64,000 bases of DNA from Aptenodytes patagonicus (taxonomy: Eukaryota; Chordata; Aves; Sphenisciformes; Spheniscidae). The first letter of the stretch is position 1. Each line of letters begins with the position of its first letter. Below, piece after piece: positions 35,508 through 63,999 of the stretch. Under the pieces are notes generated by a model. The model did not search any database, was not told where the DNA came from, and saw only the letters and a program-made list of their open reading frames with translations. Made by a program: the position numbers and the translations under genes. The stretch covers positions 3,601,001-3,665,000 of the forward strand of contig NC_134970.1 in assembly GCF_965638725.1 (NCBI RefSeq), read 5' to 3'.

Positions 35508-37508
<2,001 letters not shown>

Positions 37509-39622: not shown

Positions 39623-49216
<9,594 letters not shown>

Positions 49217-52300: not shown

Positions 52301-52813
52301 CTCGGTACCGAAGAAACAGTCCTATTCCCTGGTTTAACTTTCCAGCTCGCTGACCTGCCTTTGTCCTGTACCGAAGAGCAAGGAGGGAACAGAAGTTTTT
52401 TGCACCCCAACAAATGCATGAGAGAAGTATTATTGCACCTACCCATGGGTACTTTTTGGTTACAAAGCACAAAATATTTCACTTGGACAGTCTCTCTCGC
52501 TGGTCTACTTTGTGCCTTTAATTTCTTACAAAAATACTAAAGATGCTTAACACCCCTGCTTATTAGGACAGTAAAGTAAGATGACAAGGAAGGAAGAGCA
52601 CCAGGCACTCCACATTCTAACCCCCTTTTTCAATCGGTCAGCATTACCCCAGCTGCAAAACAGCTGCTGCTGGTTCACCTGCTTGTTACCACATTCCACA
52701 GGCTGAAAGTGCAGCGCGCGCTAGATGTCACAAATTACATATAGAACTGTGCATTATGATGCATACGTAAACCACACATCATCACGTCGTCTGAAGCACA
52801 GGAGAACCTCTTG
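49365..52813 (-). other. ZC3H11A: ZC3H11A 5' intron, segment downstream of the ZBED6 relic
   Basis: Non-coding and AT-rich. It contains an A-rich (A,C) tract at about 49994-50042, a T-run near 50117-50140, and two stretches of alternating purine-pyrimidine (CATA/TGTA) microsatellite-like DNA at about 50245-50310 and 50498-50580. No exon or mobile element is recognised. Confidence 0.6.
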
Positions 52814-54659
52814 CTAACACATCTCATTCTCTATATCAAAATCTAAAGCTAAGTTGTCCAAAACTGAAGCAGAACAGTCATAATTTCTAGTCTTTACATT
52901 TGTTTTAGTCAATTCTAGCTGTCACGTTCTGCCTAAACCTGGACTGGGGACATGTTCTGAGCCTGGGAGTTACAGTACTCAAGACCCACTCAGAGCAAAG
53001 ACTGCAAGGTTGCCAGCCAAGAAGGCAAAGGTTAAAGCAGATGATCATCTCCGCTTCCTCTGCCATTGAGTCAGGGTCACCTTGAGTCGTGATCTCTGAG
53101 AGCCAGAGCCGTGAGTTACCACAGCCGTGAGGCAGAGCTGCCCCTTGCCGGCTGGAGCAACTCTACTTGAAGATGTGCCACTTCAGGGACCTGAATTAGG
53201 ACATTCTTCCTTAAGACGAGAGGCAAATCAATCCGCTCCTGAAAGGGCTGATTGGCCTGGTGTTTCTGTAACTGTCAAAGAATAACCTCGTACTGAAGCA
53301 CTCATCAGATCAGACGCTGCTTCAGTACAGACTTGTCTTTAGCTTGACACATCAAGACTCAGGAGGAGTTCTTCAAAGCAACCTTTAAAGCAGGGATCTA
53401 GTAAAGTGGCCAAGGCAAAAAGTGTTCAGATCTAAGCACACCACTCTCTAGAAAATCAGTTTCGAGCCTAAGATATTTCACCCATCTCACAGTCCAAGAG
53501 GGACAGTGACACCTTTGATCTGAAAGTCTTTCCACATGCTCTGCAAAGCCACAAGGACGTGACTGATGGCAGCACTTGACTAAGAACTGTAGTTCCCCAC
53601 TGGCCTCCACCTGCAGGCCAAGAATCTTGCACCCATCAGACATCTGGGACCACTGGAATGACCTGAGAATAGTCCCATTCTCCCTCGCAGGAGGATGCTG
53701 CTCCACCTTCTGCTGTTTTGAAGTCACTTTAACATATAAAAGGTAGAAAGAGATTCACTGAGCAGCTGTTTCCTGCTTCAAGTGATCTGTGGAAAATGGT
53801 TTGAATGCTGGAATTCCTGAAGAATTTGATGGGCCTCAGCAGAATGAGCAAGCAAATCTATTAAGCACCCGCTAACCTGTTCTCAGTGCTCCCGTGCTCA
53901 AAGTCCTGATTCATTAATTTTAAAATATATGTAAAACATTGCAGCTGGCACCTAGCACTGCGCACACAGCGTCGGCAGTGCTGTCGGAAGCTGGAAAGCC
54001 AGGGGTGAGGGGATTAAGGGAAAGCCACACATCAGTTTGGTAACTTGGTTCTTGTAGGACGCTTCCTACTGCAGAAGTTTTAGCAAAGCCAGTGGGAGGG
54101 AGCTGCCTGTTTTCTAAAAGGGGACTTCTGCTGGTGCAGTGTATCAAAAGATATCCTTGGGCCATCACTGTCAAGTAGTCCACGGTTCATTCAGGGTCTA
54201 CGTATCAATAGTTAAATGTGCATTTTTGTGTTGTGCTTTCTCCAAAGGTATGAAAAACTTTTCTTTTACAATGCTGTATAGTCACATTATAGATGGGAAC
54301 TGACTGTCTAGCGCCACAATCTGTATGAACAAGTTGGCATAAATGTCTTCAGTAATCAATTTTATAATACCTCTGTTTATCTGTTATTTAAGTGCATTTT
54401 CATATCTGAACTTCTTCACAGCAGTATGTACTTGAGAGTCTGAGTCCCATGGTTAAGATTTATGTCCTTTCTCCTACCAAGCACCTGCTCAGTAGGCAAA
54501 GATGGAATAGGAACACCCAAGCCTGGAGATGTTAAACCACAACTGGCTCTAAGCCTATCCGTTGAAAAGAAATAGCTCAATACATCACCTTCATGGGGCA
54601 AAAATTCATGTGGAACAGTAGAAAAATCCAGAAGTGCTTCCCGAGCTTCAGGTTATCAA

Positions 54660-54890
54660 CAGCACCATCAGATTTAGGTCCTGGCCCAGTGTGCAGGACG
54701 CGTGATCTGCAAGTGTTGCTGCAACGTGGAAGCGCCAAGGCGAGTCCCTGCCCTGCCCAACACACTTTTTAAACGTTGCAAGGAGCGTGCCAGGTATACC
54801 GAGGGTCAACTGAGAAGTTCCAGACAACAGATGCATTTGTCTAATTTCTGGCATCAAAAGGCTTTTGACAGTATCGCTTCCGTGAAGAAA
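54660..54890 (-). pseudogene. ZBED6 relic, BED domain 2
   Basis: This reads TNASVVWNFSVDPRYTWHAPC, then a stop, then in the next frame KSVLGRAGTRLGASTLQQHL and QITRPAHW. The spacing from BED 1 fits the two-BED layout of ZBED6. Confidence 0.85.
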
Positions 54891-55189
54891 ACTCCTATCT
54901 TCTCCAGACGCTCCAGGATCCACTACTGCTGCAGCTGCAACGGCTACACTGGTACGACCCACATCTACGGCAAATCTCTTTGACAGCTCTTGTTTACAGG
55001 GGCACATCTGCAGTCCACTCCTCCTCTTCCAGCTGAAAAACCAGCCCGCTGGCTCTGCCATGCTGTCACTGCTGACACAAGAGCTGAGAACATACGTCGA
55101 ACTCCCACTGCTAAAACTTCTGTCTGGGGAGATGGTTGACAGACACGTTACAGGCATGTTCACCCTCCCTACAGCGCTTACAGCTGAGA

Positions 55190-55425
55190 CACCTGGCTGT
55201 TAGCCGCGGCCCAATGTACACAACGCTCTGCTTGGAGATGTCACCAAAGAGTCAGTGTCCCCAGATGAGTACCTGGCTTGCCACAGTTGATTTTTTTTAA
55301 AAACCGTATGCTGGATATGGCACACCAGGTGAACCACAGATCCAAAGTTCCACATAATGGAAGTCTTTGCTCTTCTTCCAGGCAACAGTGCATGCTTTAA
55401 CATACTGCGTTCAATGAAGAAGCTC
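55190..55425 (-). pseudogene. ZBED6 relic, BED domain 1
   Basis: The first half (FFIERSMLKHALLPGRRAKT, then SIMWNF) is open in one frame. A shift of one base just after it continues as DLWFTWCAIS and then GKPGTHLGTLTLW, a stop, and HLQAERCVHW. The BED pattern W-F...C...GTSTL-HL...H is recognisable, but the second zinc-binding cysteine is lost. Confidence 0.85.
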
Positions 55426-55736
55426 TCTCCATCTTGCTCAGTGGCAACAGGCATGACTGCAGCACACTCAGGTGCAGCAGTATCTGCAGGTCCCAGATCC
55501 TTAACAGATTTTTAGATAGCACCAATTTTCTATGTAGTGGCTTTCCCTTAATGCATAACCCCTTCTTTCCTACATTTTTAGTGGGTGGCTCTCCTCTATT
55601 GTTCTGTCCACCAGCTTTTCCTCCTCGATGTCCGAATGGGCATCGAGAATCAATTCCAAAGTAAGGGGACTGCTAAAGCTGCTACATCTACTCTTGGGTG
55701 AGACAGGCATACTTAAAGAAAAGAAAAGGCACTCAT

Positions 55737-57046
55737 TCTTTTTCTACTAAAATCAACACCGGGGCCTGGCAGCAATTTACTATGGTGATTCATCTTCCTT
55801 GCTGAAATGTTTTATTAAATCTCAAAAAGAGTCAATTTCCCCTGGAAGCAGCCATTTGGAAGGGTGCCATTTTAGATGAGAAGCAACAGCAAGAGAAAGT
55901 TTTCTCTAGACTAGCTTTTCTCCTGAAACACCTGGCCATCCAGCAACAAATTCAGCCTATCTGTTCAGCCTGACCAGCTTAACGTGTGTCCAATTCAACC
56001 ACGTGCCACAGCGGTGGTTCTGTTATCGTTTCAAAATCCCCTATCCCCGGGAGATCTCCTTTTTTACAATCAAATAACACAGTGTTTTATTTTGAACGTA
56101 TGGCCCAGAGCTCAATCTCCGAGTGCAGCGTGCATCCCAGAGCACCAGTTCTGGGAACAATCTGTAGGCTCCACATATGGATCCCTGCAACAGTAAAAAT
56201 CACTTTTGCACTTTCATTATAAACATCAATGTAAGAAACCAGAAACCTCTGAGACCCAATTCTTAAGAACAAAACCAAACGTCACCCAATAGGGTTGTTT
56301 TAAACAACCTAAAGGAGAAATTAAGATGACAACCGGGTGCATCCAGAGTTAGTCAGATCCTGAAGGCAGTTCCTTTGGGGAACGGAGGAGCAATTTGTCA
56401 GATGACTACATTACAGCACGCCCCTTATACGCATTGCTACAAAAGGAAGGCACAAGGTTTTAACTGAAAATAACGTACGCTCATAAGGCACCTGCACTGG
56501 GATCTTCAGTTTGCCCAACCGAACCTCTCCAGAGCCTGCCCAAGGACTCCGTTTCCCCGGGAGACCACCGGCACGGGGGGGGGGGGCGGGGGCGGGGGGG
56601 GGGGGGGAGGGGGGGGGGGAGCCCGCAGCCAAGCCCTGTAGAAGGGCTAACGGCCGAGGGAAGGGCAGGGGTGGGGAACGGGAGAGCTGCGCTCCGGGCT
56701 GCGGCCCTGTAGCCGGGGGCAGAGGGGACCTTGGGCCTACCTCGGGCAGCGGGGAAGCAGCTCCCCCTCTTTAAGGTCCCGGGGCGCCGAGGCCGGGGAG
56801 AACACCTCACCCCCACCACCGCCGCTCCCGGAGGGCCCGCACTGCCCCAGGGACCCCAGCGGCCTCCCCCGCCCGCCCCAGTGGCTACGGACACCCCGGT
56901 GGGGAGGGCTCGGGGACGCGGCCTGGGCCGCCCGCCCCGCCGGGCGCGGGGGACGCGGCCTGCTTCCCCTGAGGGGAGCGGAGGGGACCCGGGCCTGACG
57001 AGAGGCCATTCCCCCGCCCCTGCGGTCTACGAACGGCTCTAGTTAC
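55737..57046 (-). other. ZC3H11A: ZC3H11A 5' intron, segment upstream of the ZBED6 relic
   Basis: Non-coding. It carries the GC-rich edge of the CpG island and the G-run tract at 56575-56619. Below about 56.4 kb it is ordinary AT-richer intron with no recognised element. Confidence 0.6.
56575..56619. other. G-run tract with G-quadruplex potential near the ZC3H11A promoter
   Basis: On the plus strand, successive runs of about 12, 5, 15 and 11 G are separated by single C or A bases. This is the template strand for ZC3H11A, about 0.5 kb downstream of the inferred start, so the nascent RNA would be C-rich and the template strand could fold. Confidence 0.8.
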
Positions 57047-57200
57047 CGGCGAGCAGGGACTTTACCGAACCCCAGGGGACCGCCGCTGCCGCCGCCGTGT
57101 CGCCTCGATCCGCCGGGGCCGCCGCTCAGGCCGTCGCCTTCCCCGCTGCCAGCCTCAAAGATGGCGCCTAACATACGGGCAACCCTCAGCTCGCCCGCTG
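57047..57200 (-). other. ZC3H11A: Candidate ZC3H11A non-coding first exon
   Basis: On the minus strand, two possible splice donors end this GC-rich leader: one giving exon end 57047 (GTAACT follows) and one giving exon end 57066 (GTAAAG follows). The start codon lies in the next recognised exon at 49163-49364, which has its own acceptor and an untranslated front part, so at least one upstream leader exon is required. The exact ends are uncertain. Confidence 0.45.
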
Positions 57201-57520
57201 CCAAGATGGCGGGCGGAACGGCTTCACCAGGGCCCACTTCCGCCCGTTGGAACCGGCGGGGGCGGGGCTCCGCGCGGGAGCAGTGGACGGGCGGCACCGC
57301 CCACCGGAGCGACAGAAGCGGGGCGGGCGGGGCCCGTAAACAAAGCGGGCGGGCGGTTTTTCTGCCCTTTCCTCTTCCGAGGGGCCCCGCCAGCGCCTCT
57401 AACCCCAGGCAAAGCCCTTCGCTGTGGGGCGAACAGGAGAGTGCCCCCTTCCCGTCCACCTCCGCCCCGGCTGCGGTGCCCCACGCCCACCTTCCCGTCA
57501 GGGTGTGCGTCCCTGCCCAT

Positions 57521-57607
57521 CATGGTGCCAGGCCTCAGCCCCTGAGGTGGCCGTCCCCTCCTGCCATGGTGCCAGGCCTCAGCCCCTGAGGTGGCCGTCC
57601 CCTCCCT
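57521..57607. repeat. 44-bp direct tandem duplication (2 copies)
   Basis: The unit beginning CATGGTGCCAGGCCTCAGCC occurs at 57521 and 57565, nearly identical. Each copy contains the short palindrome CCTCAGCCCCTGAGG. Confidence 0.85.
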
Positions 57608-58338
57608 CACGCTGCCGGGCGCTGCCTCAGGGTTACAATTCCCAAGCTGGAAGCTACGTTTTCAACACGGTTTCCCGGGCTGGCAGCCACTTGCCGTGGG
57701 GCCTCAGTACACCTCAGGCCATGCTGCGCCCCAGGGAGGGAGGCCTGGGCCTGGCTGGGGTGTTTCGGGTAGCAGCCGCTCCTCTTGTCAGGGCAGCATG
57801 GGCCTGCTAAGATTTCATGGCAGATCATAGACCTAAACCTGCCTCCCTCTGCTTTTCCCCTCTCCGTCCCAGGGTGCTGGTGTCCTGCTTCCCCCGGTTT
57901 GGCCCTGCGGCAGCGGCAAAGAGCCACCTTGTCAGCAGGAGCAGCGTCCATCCTGGGGGAGAGGGTGCCTGGGCCAGCCCCGTGGCTGCACAGCCATGCA
58001 CAGCCATTTCCCCCATTAAATGACTGAAAGTCCTGTGATTTGTTTCTTTCTTTGCATCCAGCCTGGGCTAGGTTTAAAAAAAGAAGCAACTGTGGCTGTT
58101 CTGTTGAATTAAGAGCTGGAGGACGCTGTGAGCACAGACACCTCCCCAAGAAAGCAGGCAAGAGGGTGACACTGCACAGTGTGCCCCGTTCATATCACTT
58201 GTCATCAGCTCCAAGGGTCAGACACTCGGCTGAGCAAGTTTTAGATTGAACTTTCTCACTTGACAGCCTCGCCCAGCTTGATCTCATCACGGCTTGGCTC
58301 GGGGGTTATTAAAGACACAGGGAAGCAACAGCCTCCCC

Positions 58339-58404
58339 ACCGAAGCCAGGGAGTTAAAACGGCTCCAGCGCACCGAAGCCAGGGAGTTAAACAGCTCCAG
58401 CGCA
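58339..58404. repeat. 33-bp direct tandem duplication (2 copies)
   Basis: The unit beginning ACCGAAGCCAGGGAGTTAAA occurs at 58339 and again at 58372. The copies differ by an indel and a substitution. Confidence 0.85.
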
Positions 58405-58961
58405 ATCAACCTGCTTGGGAATGAGAGTATTTCAGAGGCCAGTTGCTTTTATTTCCCGTTGTCCTCATCTGGGCAAAGTGCCTCTATGGAGGCAAAATAA
58501 TCTCAGTAGAGAGGCAGGACGCAGCTCAAAGCCAGTCCCCGGGAGATGGAGATCACAACCTCCACCATGCATCACCTTAGAGGCACTGCAGACATGGCAT
58601 CAGGGAAGGGGACAAGGGAGGACCTTTGCTCGACACGTAGCCCAGGAGCACTGGTTTGGATGGCATTTGACAGCCAATTCTGGACTTTGCTCGGAGAGGG
58701 AAGAAGCCATGCTTGAGACAAAGTGCTGGGCGCAACCAGCCAGCCCCTGCCTCTCAATAGCGAGGCTTACACAGAGAGAAAACCCACGCTAAGGGGTGCT
58801 TTTGTAGTGGTGGGGTTGCTTTTGACCCCCATCCCTCTATCCACCCCGCAGGCCCCACTTCCACGCTCCGGCTTGCTCCGACGGGAAGCCCAGCCGCTCA
58901 TCCAGCGCTAGGAGAAGATGCGGGATTGATTTCGCAAGCTGGTGGACAACACTGAGGACGT

Positions 58962-61900
58962 CACAGTTACATGTGGGCACATTTTATTCTCTGGATGCAC
59001 TTGCGCATTGTTTCTGCTCAACAGCCAAAGCTTTATTGATTCAAAACCATTACCCTTCTCCCCCATCCCCAGCACGCTTTATTTTTTTGCTATGTACCCC
59101 CTTCCCCACCCCTCAACCACTCGTCCGCTTCGAGTATTATCTCTGCTTGGAGTCTGTTTTCTCAGAAGAAGCCAACTGACAATTCATTCAAAATTTTTTT
59201 CTCCCAAGAACCATATAAATTACATGCAAAACATTGTACATAGAGATTAATATCAAAATGCAATACAGATCAGGTGCACTTTAAGCTGGACTCTAGGATA
59301 TGGCAAACACACCAGGGTACATATTGCTTTGAAACCACCATTTTTTTAATGTCATGCATACCACATAATATTCAGTCTTTTGTTTTGTATTTTTCTGTTT
59401 TTATACAAAAATACCAGTGCTTATTATACTTAGTTACTGGAAAAGAAAAACTCAGATCTGCGTGCCCTCTTCAAAAGAAAGTTTTGTTGCGAGAGCATTG
59501 GATAAATATATATACACACACAAATGTTGGTTTAATACTGTATATATATATATATTTATTTAAGGGGAGGAAATAAACTAAAGGCAGTTTTAGCCATGGG
59601 CTTTGCTGAATGAAAATTGTATTTTTTGTTGAGCAGGAGGATATCAGAGGCAGGACAGCCAGACATCAGCCTTGGCAAGAGAGATGCTGGAGCGGAACAG
59701 CCAGGTGCCAATAACCACCCCGGCGTTGCCCCACAGCCTCGCTGTTTGGGGCAGGACCGGGAGAGCAGTACCCCCCCGTCGCCGTGCCCCGCCGGGGAGA
59801 GCTGGGTTTGCAGGAGGGCGTTTTACGGGTTGCATGCTTCACGGGTTGATGAACTTGTAGGAGCTGGACCCAGCGGTGAGGAGCAACAGCAGGCAGGTAC
59901 ATGTGTCCTTCCCCCGAGAAGTACAAAAGCCTGCAGGGACTCTTCTTTGAGGTGCTTGGTCCCTGCAGTCATGGAGGGCAACAGCAGTTGGCAATGGCAC
60001 CTTGGAGATGCCCTCCCTGGACCTGGGCTGGGGCTTTTCCATTCACCCCAACATCATGTCACCCCAAGAAGCATTTCTAAAGGGGCTGAGCACTACAGGA
60101 CATCTACTCCTCGGCTGGGGAAAGCCAAAGGCTGCCCATGCTAAAATTTGGTTTAGTTTTTTTTTCCCTTCTTGAGATTGTTTCAAAATTTTCCTCAAAG
60201 CTTATTGCACAAAACCTCTGAAAATTAAGTATAACCCCTGTGCAAATCAAAGGAAACCTTATCACATAATGCAAATGCCTAAAAATGCTTGTTCAGCAAT
60301 GCACACAGGACGTGGTGTAATGTCTTTGGTACCAATCTGCCAATTTATTTAACAGAAAACCACCACCACCACCACCACCACCAGAGACCCTACTGTTATT
60401 AAGAACTGGATGCAAAATTATGTTCAGAGTGTTTTAATAACAAAGCATTCCAAGGCAAGTTAACACGTATCACAGGGTATGATTCGGTTCCTGTCTGGCA
60501 TGGCACTCTCCCCCGTGCACACTCGTGGCAGTTCAAACAAAACAAAAAAAAATTAAAAAAAAGAAAAAAAAATAAAATCTCCCCCTCTTTCAAGGCATGT
60601 CGCAGAGAGTCCCCAGAAGTTCGTGCCGCCGACCATGCCTTTCAGCGTAGAGCACCAATCTCCCCCAACTCTTTTGTAATGTCCTCAATAACTTAACCCA
60701 ATAGTCATCTGCTGCCAGTATATCACTGAAACTAAATAGGAAAAAAAAAAAAAAAAAACCACTTTACAGAAAAGATGTATGCACAATAAACGTTTATACT
60801 TTAAGCAACCAGCCATACCAACATAATTTATATAAAAAAAAAGACATTTGTGTCATCCAACTAACGTCTAGTATAAAGATGGCTGCTCAGAGAAAAGGAA
60901 GCTGACTGGCATCCGATCGCTGATACACTGAATTAATTACCTGTCACTTGGAACTGCCGTCACACAGTCACGCGCCGTTGCAGACGCGGGACTCAAGATT
61001 TATTTATTTTTTTTTCTTTAAACAAAATACATATGGCTGACGTAAAAATATCAGTTTCTGATCTAAAGAAAACTATATTTTTTGCATAATATTTATATAT
61101 AATTATTTCTCCCCCTCCTAATATGGAAACTAGAACAACAAAAATATATCAACTAGAGAACAACCAGACCCTTGTGGCAACCTGCCAGTCACAGATTTCT
61201 GTGAGTTACTTTGAGAGCCTCCAAACTTGGCTTTTTGTTGGTTTTTGTTGGTTTAAGTCTTTTCTTTTTTTTTTTTTAAACAAGTCTGAGGTAATAAAAA
61301 AAATATCAAAAGAAAAAAAGAAAAATCAGTGTATCCCCCCCCAAAGTATTTAATAAATATTTATGTAAGCTTGTAAGAACACCATTTTTTCATCCTTTTT
61401 TTTTTTTTTTTGCAAGTATTTAAAATAGAAAAAGTGATCTTTTAAGCAATGTCACCTTTAGTACAGAACCAAACCCCACAACCACCCCTTTTGTCTTTCC
61501 TGTCACCACTTGTGTATAACCCAAGAAAACACCCCCCCACCCCCCCGGTCCTGCCCAAGGTATTTTTTCAGCTCGTGTGAAGAAGGAACGGGGAGGGCAG
61601 CGATGGGTTTGTCTGCGCGGGCAGGGGGCTTGACACTGAATTTGCAATTGAGATGGGTAGTGGTGGCAATTTCTTCTTGCTGTTGGCAGTGTACGGAGCC
61701 CAGCCTTCACCCCCTTTGCCAGCACCGAGGCGGGAGACCTGGGAGAAGGACCTTTCCTCAGCTACCTGGGGCAGGAATGGGGTGACCTCGTCCTTCCCTT
61801 CCTCCCACCCCAAGGAAGGGATGAGTCGGTGCTGGGCTAGAAACAAAACAAAGACACTTGGTTTGTGTTGTCGTTTAAGGAACACTTATTTCTTGGCAAA

Positions 61901-63765
61901 GTACTGGGCCCTCGCGTGGCAGGTGGTGCTGCAGGCAGTGCTCGGAGAAGGCACGGGAGATTCTGCTGTGCGTTCTTAAAGGAAAGAAAAGAAACAACCA
62001 GCCAGCCCACCCTCTCGCTAAAACCTCTCTGCTTCCAGGGATGGAGGCTGGGCAAAGACGATGACGTTGTACAGCCAGTTACAACCAGGTTCTCTCTGCT
62101 TCCAACCAAGCCAACCAGGACGAAGGAGAGAAGGCAGCAGAGCTTCCTCCAGCCCTGCCTGCCTGGGGCCAGTAACCAGGGGTGCACCAGCAAGAGCCCA
62201 CGGGGAAGAAACTAAGCCCAAGTAAATCAAACTCCTGCCTCCTGCTCAGTCCCATGGCTTCACAAGAGGGTCAGTTTAGAGCCAACTTGCCCAGGACACC
62301 TGGGGCCTCTGCTCCAGAAAACCAGGACTCTCACCAAACGGTTACGAGACACCGAGGTGAGGCAGGACGCAGGGTGAAGAGATGACCTTCAAAAAAGCAG
62401 CAAGTGAGGCAAAGCCTCCATGCAGCACCTTCTCTGGAAGACCTGCAGCCAACCAACCAACCTGCCACCTCTGCGAGGAATTGCCTCCACTGGCAAATCA
62501 GCTCCAGAAGTGCTATGGAAATCAAAGGCCATGGAGCCTCCCTCCCTTCCACCAGCTAAAGAGACAACCTGAGTCACCCCTTCCATGATCTAGGAGTTGA
62601 CCCACTGTACTGTCAATAACCCGATGCTTGTTGTCCGTTCAGCCTGCTGACGCTTTGGCAGCGATGCGCAGAGCTGGTGGGTACGGCTGGAGCACCCTCT
62701 GGGGTTCCTCAGCAGTTAACCAGAACTTGTACTCCAAGGCTGAAGGATTATTTAACCCAAGAGTACAGACAGGCCAGAACGGGCAAGAGTCCTTCTGCTC
62801 TTGATGGCAGGAGCCGTTAAACCTTTGCAAGGCTCTCGCCAAAAGTTTCACAGCTGTTCAAGGGCAGAAGAGATGCATCTCTTAAGACTCCCCAGGAAGG
62901 AGCCCTGTTTCTCACAACCATGGGGTTTTTCTTCACCACCCTTCCGCTGCCAGTTCACCTCCACCTTGCTTTGTAGAAAAATCAGAATCTTTTACATCCG
63001 GCAAGGTTACAGCCAAGTCACCTTTGTTCCTTGTCTACCAATTACTGCTTTGGAAACAGAGAGAGAAAAGCATGTGCGCACACACAGAGGAGGAACTGTA
63101 AAGGCTAGGTACCATTTTTCAAGGTGGAAGACTGGTGTACATCCCTGTATCTATCAACCTGTGAGTAAACACCTTCCCCCTGGCTGGGTTTTTTTTGTTT
63201 ATTTTTAAATTTTCGCACTAGAGTGCTAACTCCCCCACTTCCCATTGTGAAGTTACTGGGGGCAAATCCCACAAGCAAAGAACAAACCCCAACATTAGAA
63301 GAGAACCCTAAAAACCACAAGTGGAAAAAAAATAAAGTCACAAGTGCACCCCAGCCCTCAGGCTGAGAGCGTGCATTTAAGACTACAACAATTTGAACTT
63401 TCTTTGAACATGCATTTTTCAAAGTGAAAACCCCCTACGGACGCATGGAGCCCAACTCTCGGAGAGGAAATAACCTGGCTGCTTCACCTGGGCGAGTACC
63501 ACTGAAAATTAGGGATGGAGATGCACAATTTTGGCTTAGCCTCTCTCTCCCAACACTCAGCATCGTGGTACTCTGGTTCCCACTGCTAAATAATGGTAAA
63601 AACAAAAACAAAAAACAAAACCCCCAAAAACAGAACACCAAAATGATATACGTATGAGCAGTTTGACACGAAGTGACCACAGTGTGTGATCAGTTACTGG
63701 TGCCAATATCACACAGGGCGAGGGGCGAAGGTGGAGGAGGAGGGGGGGGGTTCGAAGTTCTAAGG
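58962..63765 (-). other. ATP2B4: ATP2B4 3' untranslated region
   Basis: This is the inferred 3'UTR of the pump gene, running from the TGA at 63766 to the poly(A) signal cluster near 59.0 kb. No coding frame in it is credible. It contains an interrupted (CA)/(TA) microsatellite at 59506-59560, a (CCA)n tract near 60360-60382, A/T homopolymers (for example 60739-60756 and 61389-61411), and several AT-rich AUUUA-type stretches near 61000-61100 and 61340-61420 (transcript sense). Earlier AATAAA hexamers on the minus strand (for example near 61000 and 59554) could give shorter isoforms. The extent is inferred and not backed by transcript data. Confidence 0.6.
58983..59083 (-). terminator. ATP2B4: Cluster of three AATAAA poly(A) signals, ATP2B4 3' end
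   Basis: Three minus-strand AATAAA hexamers lie at 59078-59083, 59032-59037 and 58983-58988, within about 100 bp. The middle one reads AATAAAGC. They follow the long non-coding tract after the ATP2B4 stop and precede the spacer to ZC3H11A, so cleavage is expected at about 58960-59060. Confidence 0.6.
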
Positions 63766-63999
63766 TCAAACCGATGTCTCCAAGCTGTGTAAGGGGCTTT
63801 CGGGCTCCGGGACGGTGACCTCAGCTTGATCGCTGTCCACTGCATTGTTATTTCTGTTGAGGGATGTAGATCCACCCAGGCTACCCCCACCTCGCTTTTT
63901 GAGTCCGTCGGTCTCGGGGTCATCTTCAGCGCCGTCAAGGAATGGTGTTCGAGGCTCGTCTTCCTCCAGGATGAACTCTGGGTGAGTCATGAAGTTATG
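63766..63999 (-). CDS. ATP2B4: ATP2B4 (PMCA4) C-terminal coding piece, partial
   Basis: This is the C-terminal tail of a plasma-membrane Ca2+-transporting ATPase, which pumps Ca2+ out of the cell. About 78 codons read from the window edge to a TGA at 63766-63768. Visible family landmarks are FMTHPEF near the start, an acidic stretch (EEDEP, EDDPE), the NRNNNAVDS segment, and the end SPLHSLETSV. From family knowledge, a terminal ETSV (PDZ ligand) marks the PMCA4 'b' splice form, whereas PMCA1-3 'b' forms end ETSL. The synteny with ZC3H11A and SNRPE agrees with ATP2B4. The exon is open at its 5' side and continues past the window, so its acceptor, the calmodulin-binding region and the whole pump body are outside. 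The paralogue call rests on ETSV plus gene order. Confidence 0.9.
   Translation of the reverse strand, partial: HNFMTHPEFILEEDEPRTPFLDGAEDDPETDGLKKRGGGSLGGSTSLNRNNNAVDSDQAEVTVPEPESPLHSLETSV

Follow-up and report, generated by a model that had tools for sequence, protein, structure and literature searches.

An end-to-end ZBED6 relic in the ZC3H11A 5′ intron of a bird genome

The window, the whole 64,000-nucleotide stretch of bird DNA analysed here, carries on its minus strand at positions 52,814–55,736 an end-to-end relic of ZBED6, which runs for 2,923 bases from an ATG to a terminal TAG inside the 5′ intron of ZC3H11A. We conclude with high confidence that this relic is the orthologue of mammalian ZBED6, decayed to a unitary pseudogene, on a case built from one sauropsid genome. 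Because a full-length relic lies in the same intron as the mammals' copy, ZBED6, with its insertion and both of its BED domains, is probably older than the divergence of mammals and reptiles, with its loss coming later. The relic adds an instance to a known kind of finding, the unitary pseudogene of a known gene, and matters for how the history of ZBED6 is read.

Extent, identity, and decay of the relic

The queries for ZBED6, ZBED4, ZBED1, and ZC3H11A were human-type reference proteins written out for this analysis rather than taken from a database, and frameshift-aware alignments were made with an aligner purpose-written for this analysis. As a check on the reference sequences, the ZBED4 and ZBED1 of this genome shared 79% and 84% of residues with their human references over nearly their full length. 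The BED domains of the reference ZBED6 matched Pfam zf-BED (E 3.7e-10 and 2.2e-11) and the solved ZBED2 (2.5e-5).

Frameshift-aware alignment of the relic with the human-type reference ZBED6 gave a score of 765 and spanned residues 5–968 of 978, with 353 of 905 aligned residues identical and with 21 frameshifts and 17 stops. The relic measured 0.995 of the 978 codons plus stop of this reference, in agreement with the first-pass annotation, which had put a full-length copy within 1% of the mammalian gene. Three hundred first-order Markov resamples scored 42 on average and 56 at most against ZBED6, and the controls of reversed ZBED6 protein and the opposite strand of the relic scored 41 and 43, respectively. 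In the rest of the window outside the relic, the top score for ZBED6 was 52. Plain tblastn with the reference ZBED6 returned collinear minus-strand pieces from 55,719 down to 52,820; in the window search, the best had an E-value of 5.9e-13, followed by 3e-11, 1e-9, 1.5e-8, 2.9e-8, 2.3e-7, and 1.5e-6, and the N-terminal piece by itself reached only 0.81. The best tblastn E-values of the reference ZBED4 and ZBED1 in the window were 0.34 and 0.96. These scores bear out the earlier identification as ZBED6, and the absence of significant frameshift-aware similarity, which the same annotation had named as evidence against itself, was not what we found. The motifs that it had cited (HQILQEFQ, LATLLDPCFK, WQRK, and NYDCS) were all present in the frameshift-aware alignment.

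When ZBED6 was cut into consecutive pieces of 96–98 residues, each of the ten had its top placement in the window within the relic and on the minus strand, with scores from 164 down to 56, of which the last two (67 and 56) were weak. Nine of the ten were collinear, the exception being residues 197–294, which were placed on the first BED copy. Pfam zf-BED and Dimer_Tnp_hAT were recognized in none of the six raw frames and none of the three stitched pieces of the relic; such recognition is no defining feature of a decayed copy, yet it counts as a negative result.

The relic is an intronless stretch with two BED regions, both scoring above noise, followed by a hAT body. A remnant start codon (ATG AGT GCC...) lies at 55,734–55,736 on the minus strand; its match to ZBED6 residue 1 was made by eye, because the alignment begins at residue 5. 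The N-terminal region (ZBED6 5–114; 55,419–55,719, minus strand), including a KKGLCIKGK stretch, retained 46 identities in 101 aligned residues. The first BED domain remnant (55,194–55,418, minus strand) was identical at 37 of 74 residues, and among the positions that we take from the BED pattern to be zinc ligands, C151, C154, and H180 were replaced by Ser, Phe, and Arg, respectively, with H175 retained. The second (54,667–54,890, minus strand) was identical at 38 of 76, with C288 turned into a stop, H314 replaced by Arg, and C285 and H309 retained. Thus, three of the eight CCHH ligand positions of functional ZBED6 were kept and five were lost. The remnant of the hAT body and C-terminal region (ZBED6 404–968; 52,820–54,398, minus strand) showed an identity of 0.32–0.42 by segment and scored 476 with ZBED6, compared with 52 and 33 for the reference ZBED4 and ZBED1. 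It held 14 of the 17 stops and was followed by the terminal stop codon TAG at 52,814–52,816 (minus strand).

Damage began early. The ATG frame met a TAA at codon 8, frameshifts started in the N-terminal region, and the 17 aligned stops started at the first BED domain, with the linker of residues 191–246 free of either; the pseudogene state proposed in the first-pass annotation held. With its 17 stops and 21 frameshifts, the relic contained no open frame of more than 900 codons such as functional ZBED6 has. It yields no BED-hAT protein today, since the ATG frame ends at codon 8, damage runs to the end, and only three of eight zinc ligands remain. The GC content of the relic region (52,751–55,750) was 0.36–0.54, which tended to be above that of the intron at 49.0–52.25 kb (0.30–0.39), and the immediate flanks stood at 0.42–0.44; the raised GC could be a trace of a coding past.

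Host intron and gene neighbourhood

Searches by tblastn with the reference ZC3H11A placed its coding exons at 39,626–49,216 on the minus strand, with the first Met at 49,216. The aligned pieces at E below 1e-3, taken as pieces and not as an assembled transcript, contained no stop, and two of the exons matched Pfam zf-CCCH_3 (E 1e-22 and 1.7e-19). Upstream, a GC-rich and CpG-rich region at 56,501–58,000 (GC 0.64–0.80; no strand assigned) presumably holds the promoter and first exon, and this stretch of 56.5–58.0 kb is likely the ZC3H11A promoter. The relic sits between the CpG-rich region and the first coding exon, on the strand of ZC3H11A, and therefore within the ZC3H11A 5′ intron, which we infer to be intron number 1. 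The first-pass annotation had proposed this intron and the mammalian orientation, and both held, with the relic upstream of the first coding exon on the same strand.

The neighbouring genes were identified in the same way. Downstream, four tblastn pieces 72–100% identical to SNRPE marked its exons at 35,511–37,508 on the minus strand, one of which matched Pfam LSM (E 1.2e-7). At the upstream edge, the C-terminus of a plasma-membrane calcium ATPase was found at 63,769–63,999 on the minus strand (E 1.7e-16 in a tblastn search with a reference PMCA C-terminus), which we call ATP2B4-like by its position. The order on this single strand was thus the ATP2B4-like end, the relic, ZC3H11A, and SNRPE, matching the order around ZBED6 in the human genome. 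The place of human LAX1 would presumably correspond to 58,000–63,700 of the window, which separates ZC3H11A from the calcium ATPase end. A search of the window with a SOX13 HMG box found no match.

The genome gave at least 150 beta-keratin matches (from scoring 150 of the 380 candidates). Because beta-keratins are a sauropsid family, the genome is that of a sauropsid and neither a monotreme nor a marsupial, and the bird-like origin that had been read from the letters stands. The host matters, since dead ZBED6 has already been mentioned for platypus and opossum.

Genome-wide relatives and the origin of the relic

A BED profile search of the 1.35 Gb genome found six BED domains, all within three open frames: a four-BED ZBED4 of 1,172 aa, a ZBED1 of 695 aa, and a third, single-BED hAT protein of 676 aa. 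No intact ZBED6 and no other two-BED ZBED6 was among these matches. Own ZBED4 and ZBED1 (L008 and L009, contig C1) are hAT-derived BED genes like the relic; unlike it they are intact, and their frameshift-aware similarity to it was at noise (51 and 43), as was that of the third protein (44), against 765 for ZBED6. The third protein (L010; G000:C32:239500-245000, minus strand, on a contig of 335 kb) has an intact frame of 694 codons that encodes a single BED zinc finger along with a hAT dimerisation domain, is approximately 22–23% identical to the reference ZBED6, ZBED4, and ZBED1, and is possibly an uncharacterised domesticated hAT gene. Matches to the hAT dimerisation domain were also observed in long frames of 670 (L016; G000:C1:224949766), 573 (L019; G000:C18:1399640), and 743 residues (G000:C7:27195205). 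When seven hAT loci other than the three intact genes were compared with the relic by their longest open frames, not always the hAT part, the scores were 31–38; in this comparison L016 scored 38 and L019 scored 36.

At the level of single domains, the relic BEDs scored 70–102 with the two BEDs of ZBED6 and 23–51 with those of ZBED2, ZBED3, and ZBED4, and 95% of random pieces scored at most 33. The relic could fall among the random pieces, and this accounts for some of the maxima; the 95% values are those to go by. ZBED2 and ZBED3 entered this comparison by their BED domains only, and C7ORF29 and ZBEDX were left out of it.

The genome also contained dispersed hAT fossils. A plain whole-genome search with ZBED6 and an E-value limit of 0.01 gave 24 matches among the 47 of 55 candidates that were scored; seven lay in the three BED-hAT genes (five in ZBED4), four in the relic, and 13 elsewhere, the last mostly short hAT or BED pieces. 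The best single piece of the relic (E 1.2e-7) ranked sixth among the 24 listed, behind the three BED-hAT genes and a pair of short fossils (2.3e-10 and 5.7e-8), and the frameshift-aware total alone sets the relic apart from the other matches. Nine of the 13 and one locus from the hAT-dimerisation search were aligned with frameshifts allowed, in a run that also took in L014 and, as L026, the relic. These ten fossils (L024, L025, L027, L028, L032, L034, L037, L038, L039, and L017), with approximately 30–300 aligned residues each, scored 88–163 with ZBED6 compared with 765 for the relic. Seven preferred ZBED6 over own ZBED4, and L027, L034, and L017 preferred ZBED4; L032, L037, and L039 had no stop inside the match. 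The dispersed fossils may be remains of the transposon family ancestral to ZBED6.

In the columns common to the relic and each fossil, identity between the relic and ZBED6 was 0.36–0.57 and that between the relic and the fossil was 0.18–0.43. The relic was nearer to ZBED6 than to the fossil in all ten pairwise comparisons, in which both copies were decayed and ZBED6 set the columns; the test is weak, because two decayed copies would both look nearer to an undecayed gene. The identity of the fossils with ZBED6 in these columns was 0.30–0.57, and two of the ten (L025 and L032) were slightly nearer to ZBED6 than the relic is. The first-pass annotation had allowed that another hAT family might lie closer to the relic, and this was tested in part: the three intact BED-hAT proteins reached only 43–51, and all ten fossils were farther from the relic than ZBED6 is, within the weakness of that test. 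The ten examined ZBED6/4-like fossils are fragments. Among nine fossil loci tested over 3.1–3.4 kb, none matched ZBED6 1–128 above noise (scores 31–39) and none held BED and hAT parts together; these loci extend approximately 1.5 kb to each side of the match, and parts beyond could exist.

Multiple similar copies and terminal inverted repeats, the hallmarks of a dispersed transposon, were not seen for the two stretches searched and around the relic, respectively. DNA searches of the 1.35 Gb with 53,500–54,500 and 52,814–53,500 each returned a single match, the query itself, and none of the 12 weak pairs of inverted repeats around the relic was convincing as bounding it. No relatives turned up in viral contigs scanned with a ZC3H11A exon and with the BED region of ZBED6, the phage records gave no match, and a presumed CR1-type reading frame found in L015 had no match within the window.

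Identity alone is no proof of orthology, because the fossils are about as close to ZBED6 as the relic is and two of them beat its best piece; the argument is therefore carried by position, strand, length, and the N-terminus. An independent insertion, in which a ZBED6-like hAT transposon happened to enter the same intron in an ancestor of birds, could draw on the related fossils and their similar identity to ZBED6 in common columns, yet it would have to reproduce the intron, strand, and length of mammalian ZBED6. With ten randomly inserted copies, the chance of one falling in the ZC3H11A intron on the right strand is approximately 3e-5, and with a thousand copies it is 3e-3; both relic pieces searched are single copy, and the nine loci of 3.1–3.4 kb offered neither the ZBED6 N-terminus nor joined BED and hAT parts, all of which makes such an insertion very improbable. 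That the relic descends from a different ZBED gene (ZBED4, ZBED1, or a closely related paralogue), an old copy of which was retroposed into the intron, seems to us scarcely credible. BED and hAT parts are common to ZBED genes, and the ZBED2 BED scored 51 with the first BED of the relic and one BED of the reference ZBED4 scored 48 and 45, above 95% of random pieces, but the whole proteins of own ZBED4 and ZBED1 remained at noise against the 765 of ZBED6. We also consider it unlikely that the relic is not simply dead and that part of it is conserved as a noncoding element or transcribed in a ZC3H11A isoform, given disruptions in nearly all segments.

With orthology as the preferred reading, a single ancient insertion would have brought a hAT transposase gene into the ZC3H11A 5′ intron of the ancestor of mammals and sauropsids, and the inserted gene would already have had two BED domains before these lineages parted. 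It would then have been retained in placentals, and on the lineage to this bird its death would have been followed by neutral decay. Mouse Zbed6 is described as intronless, located in Zc3h11a intron 1, and transcribed via intron retention (PMC2780926). By analogy with mouse, the live ancestor may have relied on the ZC3H11A promoter and on intron retention for its expression and may have acted as a DNA-binding regulator repressing target genes.

Time of loss and the history of ZBED6

To estimate when the gene died, we ran 9,000 simulations that started from the reference ZBED6 and left protein divergence (f), neutral divergence (D), and the indel ratio free. The 152 accepted simulations gave a D since death of 0.26 (0.14–0.50) per site, with D and f trading off. 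At an f of 0.75–0.85, as for a protein conserved like own ZBED4 and ZBED1, D was approximately 0.37 (16 of 1,492 simulations accepted), which corresponds to approximately 180 Myr at an assumed rate of 2.0e-9 per year and to 306 Myr at 1.2e-9. Mammals and sauropsids split 319 Myr ago. Decay since that split was rejected at 2.0e-9 per site per year, with none of 800 simulations reaching the score, and was not rejected at 1.0, 1.2, and 1.5e-9 (33 of 816, 26 of 854, and 12 of 777 simulations accepted, respectively). Death soon after the split is thus excluded only at the fastest rate tried, 2.0e-9, and given this rate dependence and the trade-off between D and f, we claim no date of death. A long function of ZBED6 in sauropsids is plausible. 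We put at about even the fuller scenario in which ZBED6 was domesticated before the split, functioned for long in stem sauropsids, and was lost toward birds, monotremes, and marsupials, with orthologues that may still live in turtles, crocodilians, or lizards; if true, the placental restriction of ZBED6 would reflect repeated loss elsewhere.

The original report describes ZBED6 as a controller of IGF2 and muscle growth that is unique to placental mammals, with no functional copy found outside placentals, and takes its function to have evolved once marsupials had split off (PMC2780926). Placental ZBED6 (PMC2780926) and the relic share ZC3H11A intron 1, strand, and a length within 1%, and both have two BED domains, a hAT body, and N- and C-termini; unlike the mammalian gene, the relic has no open frame among its 17 stops and 21 frameshifts, and its host is a bird. 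The same report mentions, as unpublished, nonfunctional ZBED6 sequence at this site in platypus and opossum, and places the insertion before the monotreme split (PMC2780926). The platypus, opossum, and bird sequences would thus all be dead copies at an orthologous site. The platypus and opossum remains lie within mammals and therefore show the insertion only to be older than the divergence of monotremes, so that an insertion before the mammal–reptile split antedates the published limit. With a dead but full-length copy present in a bird, at the same site and with both BED domains, the insertion and the duplication of the BED domain shift to before the mammal–reptile split, and the question shifts from how placentals gained ZBED6 to why placentals alone kept it.

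Other sources call ZBED6 mammalian-specific and not detectable in opossum (PMC8035546), list orthologues from six placental species besides human (PMC3606216), and record that ZBED genes in general occur in birds (PMC10027918). The main text of a survey of ancient fossils does not contain ZBED or ZC3H11A as whole words (PMC9004415), and the accessible portions of three further papers added nothing on ZBED6 in birds (PMC7786948, PMC3424704, and PMC3057954). The first-pass annotation knew of no such description for birds, which agrees with the open literature as far as it was accessible, in which we found no report of avian ZBED6; automatic annotation of reptile ZBED6 may exist. Within the ZBED6 clade, C7ORF29 and ZBEDX, the latter with two BED domains, have been reported (PMC3606216); both are located by LRRC61 (PMC3606216), unlike the relic in its ZC3H11A intron. 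The gene name Zbed6 is also used in a newt paper (PMC11872487) and, if it denotes an orthologue, might point to a still older origin of ZBED6.
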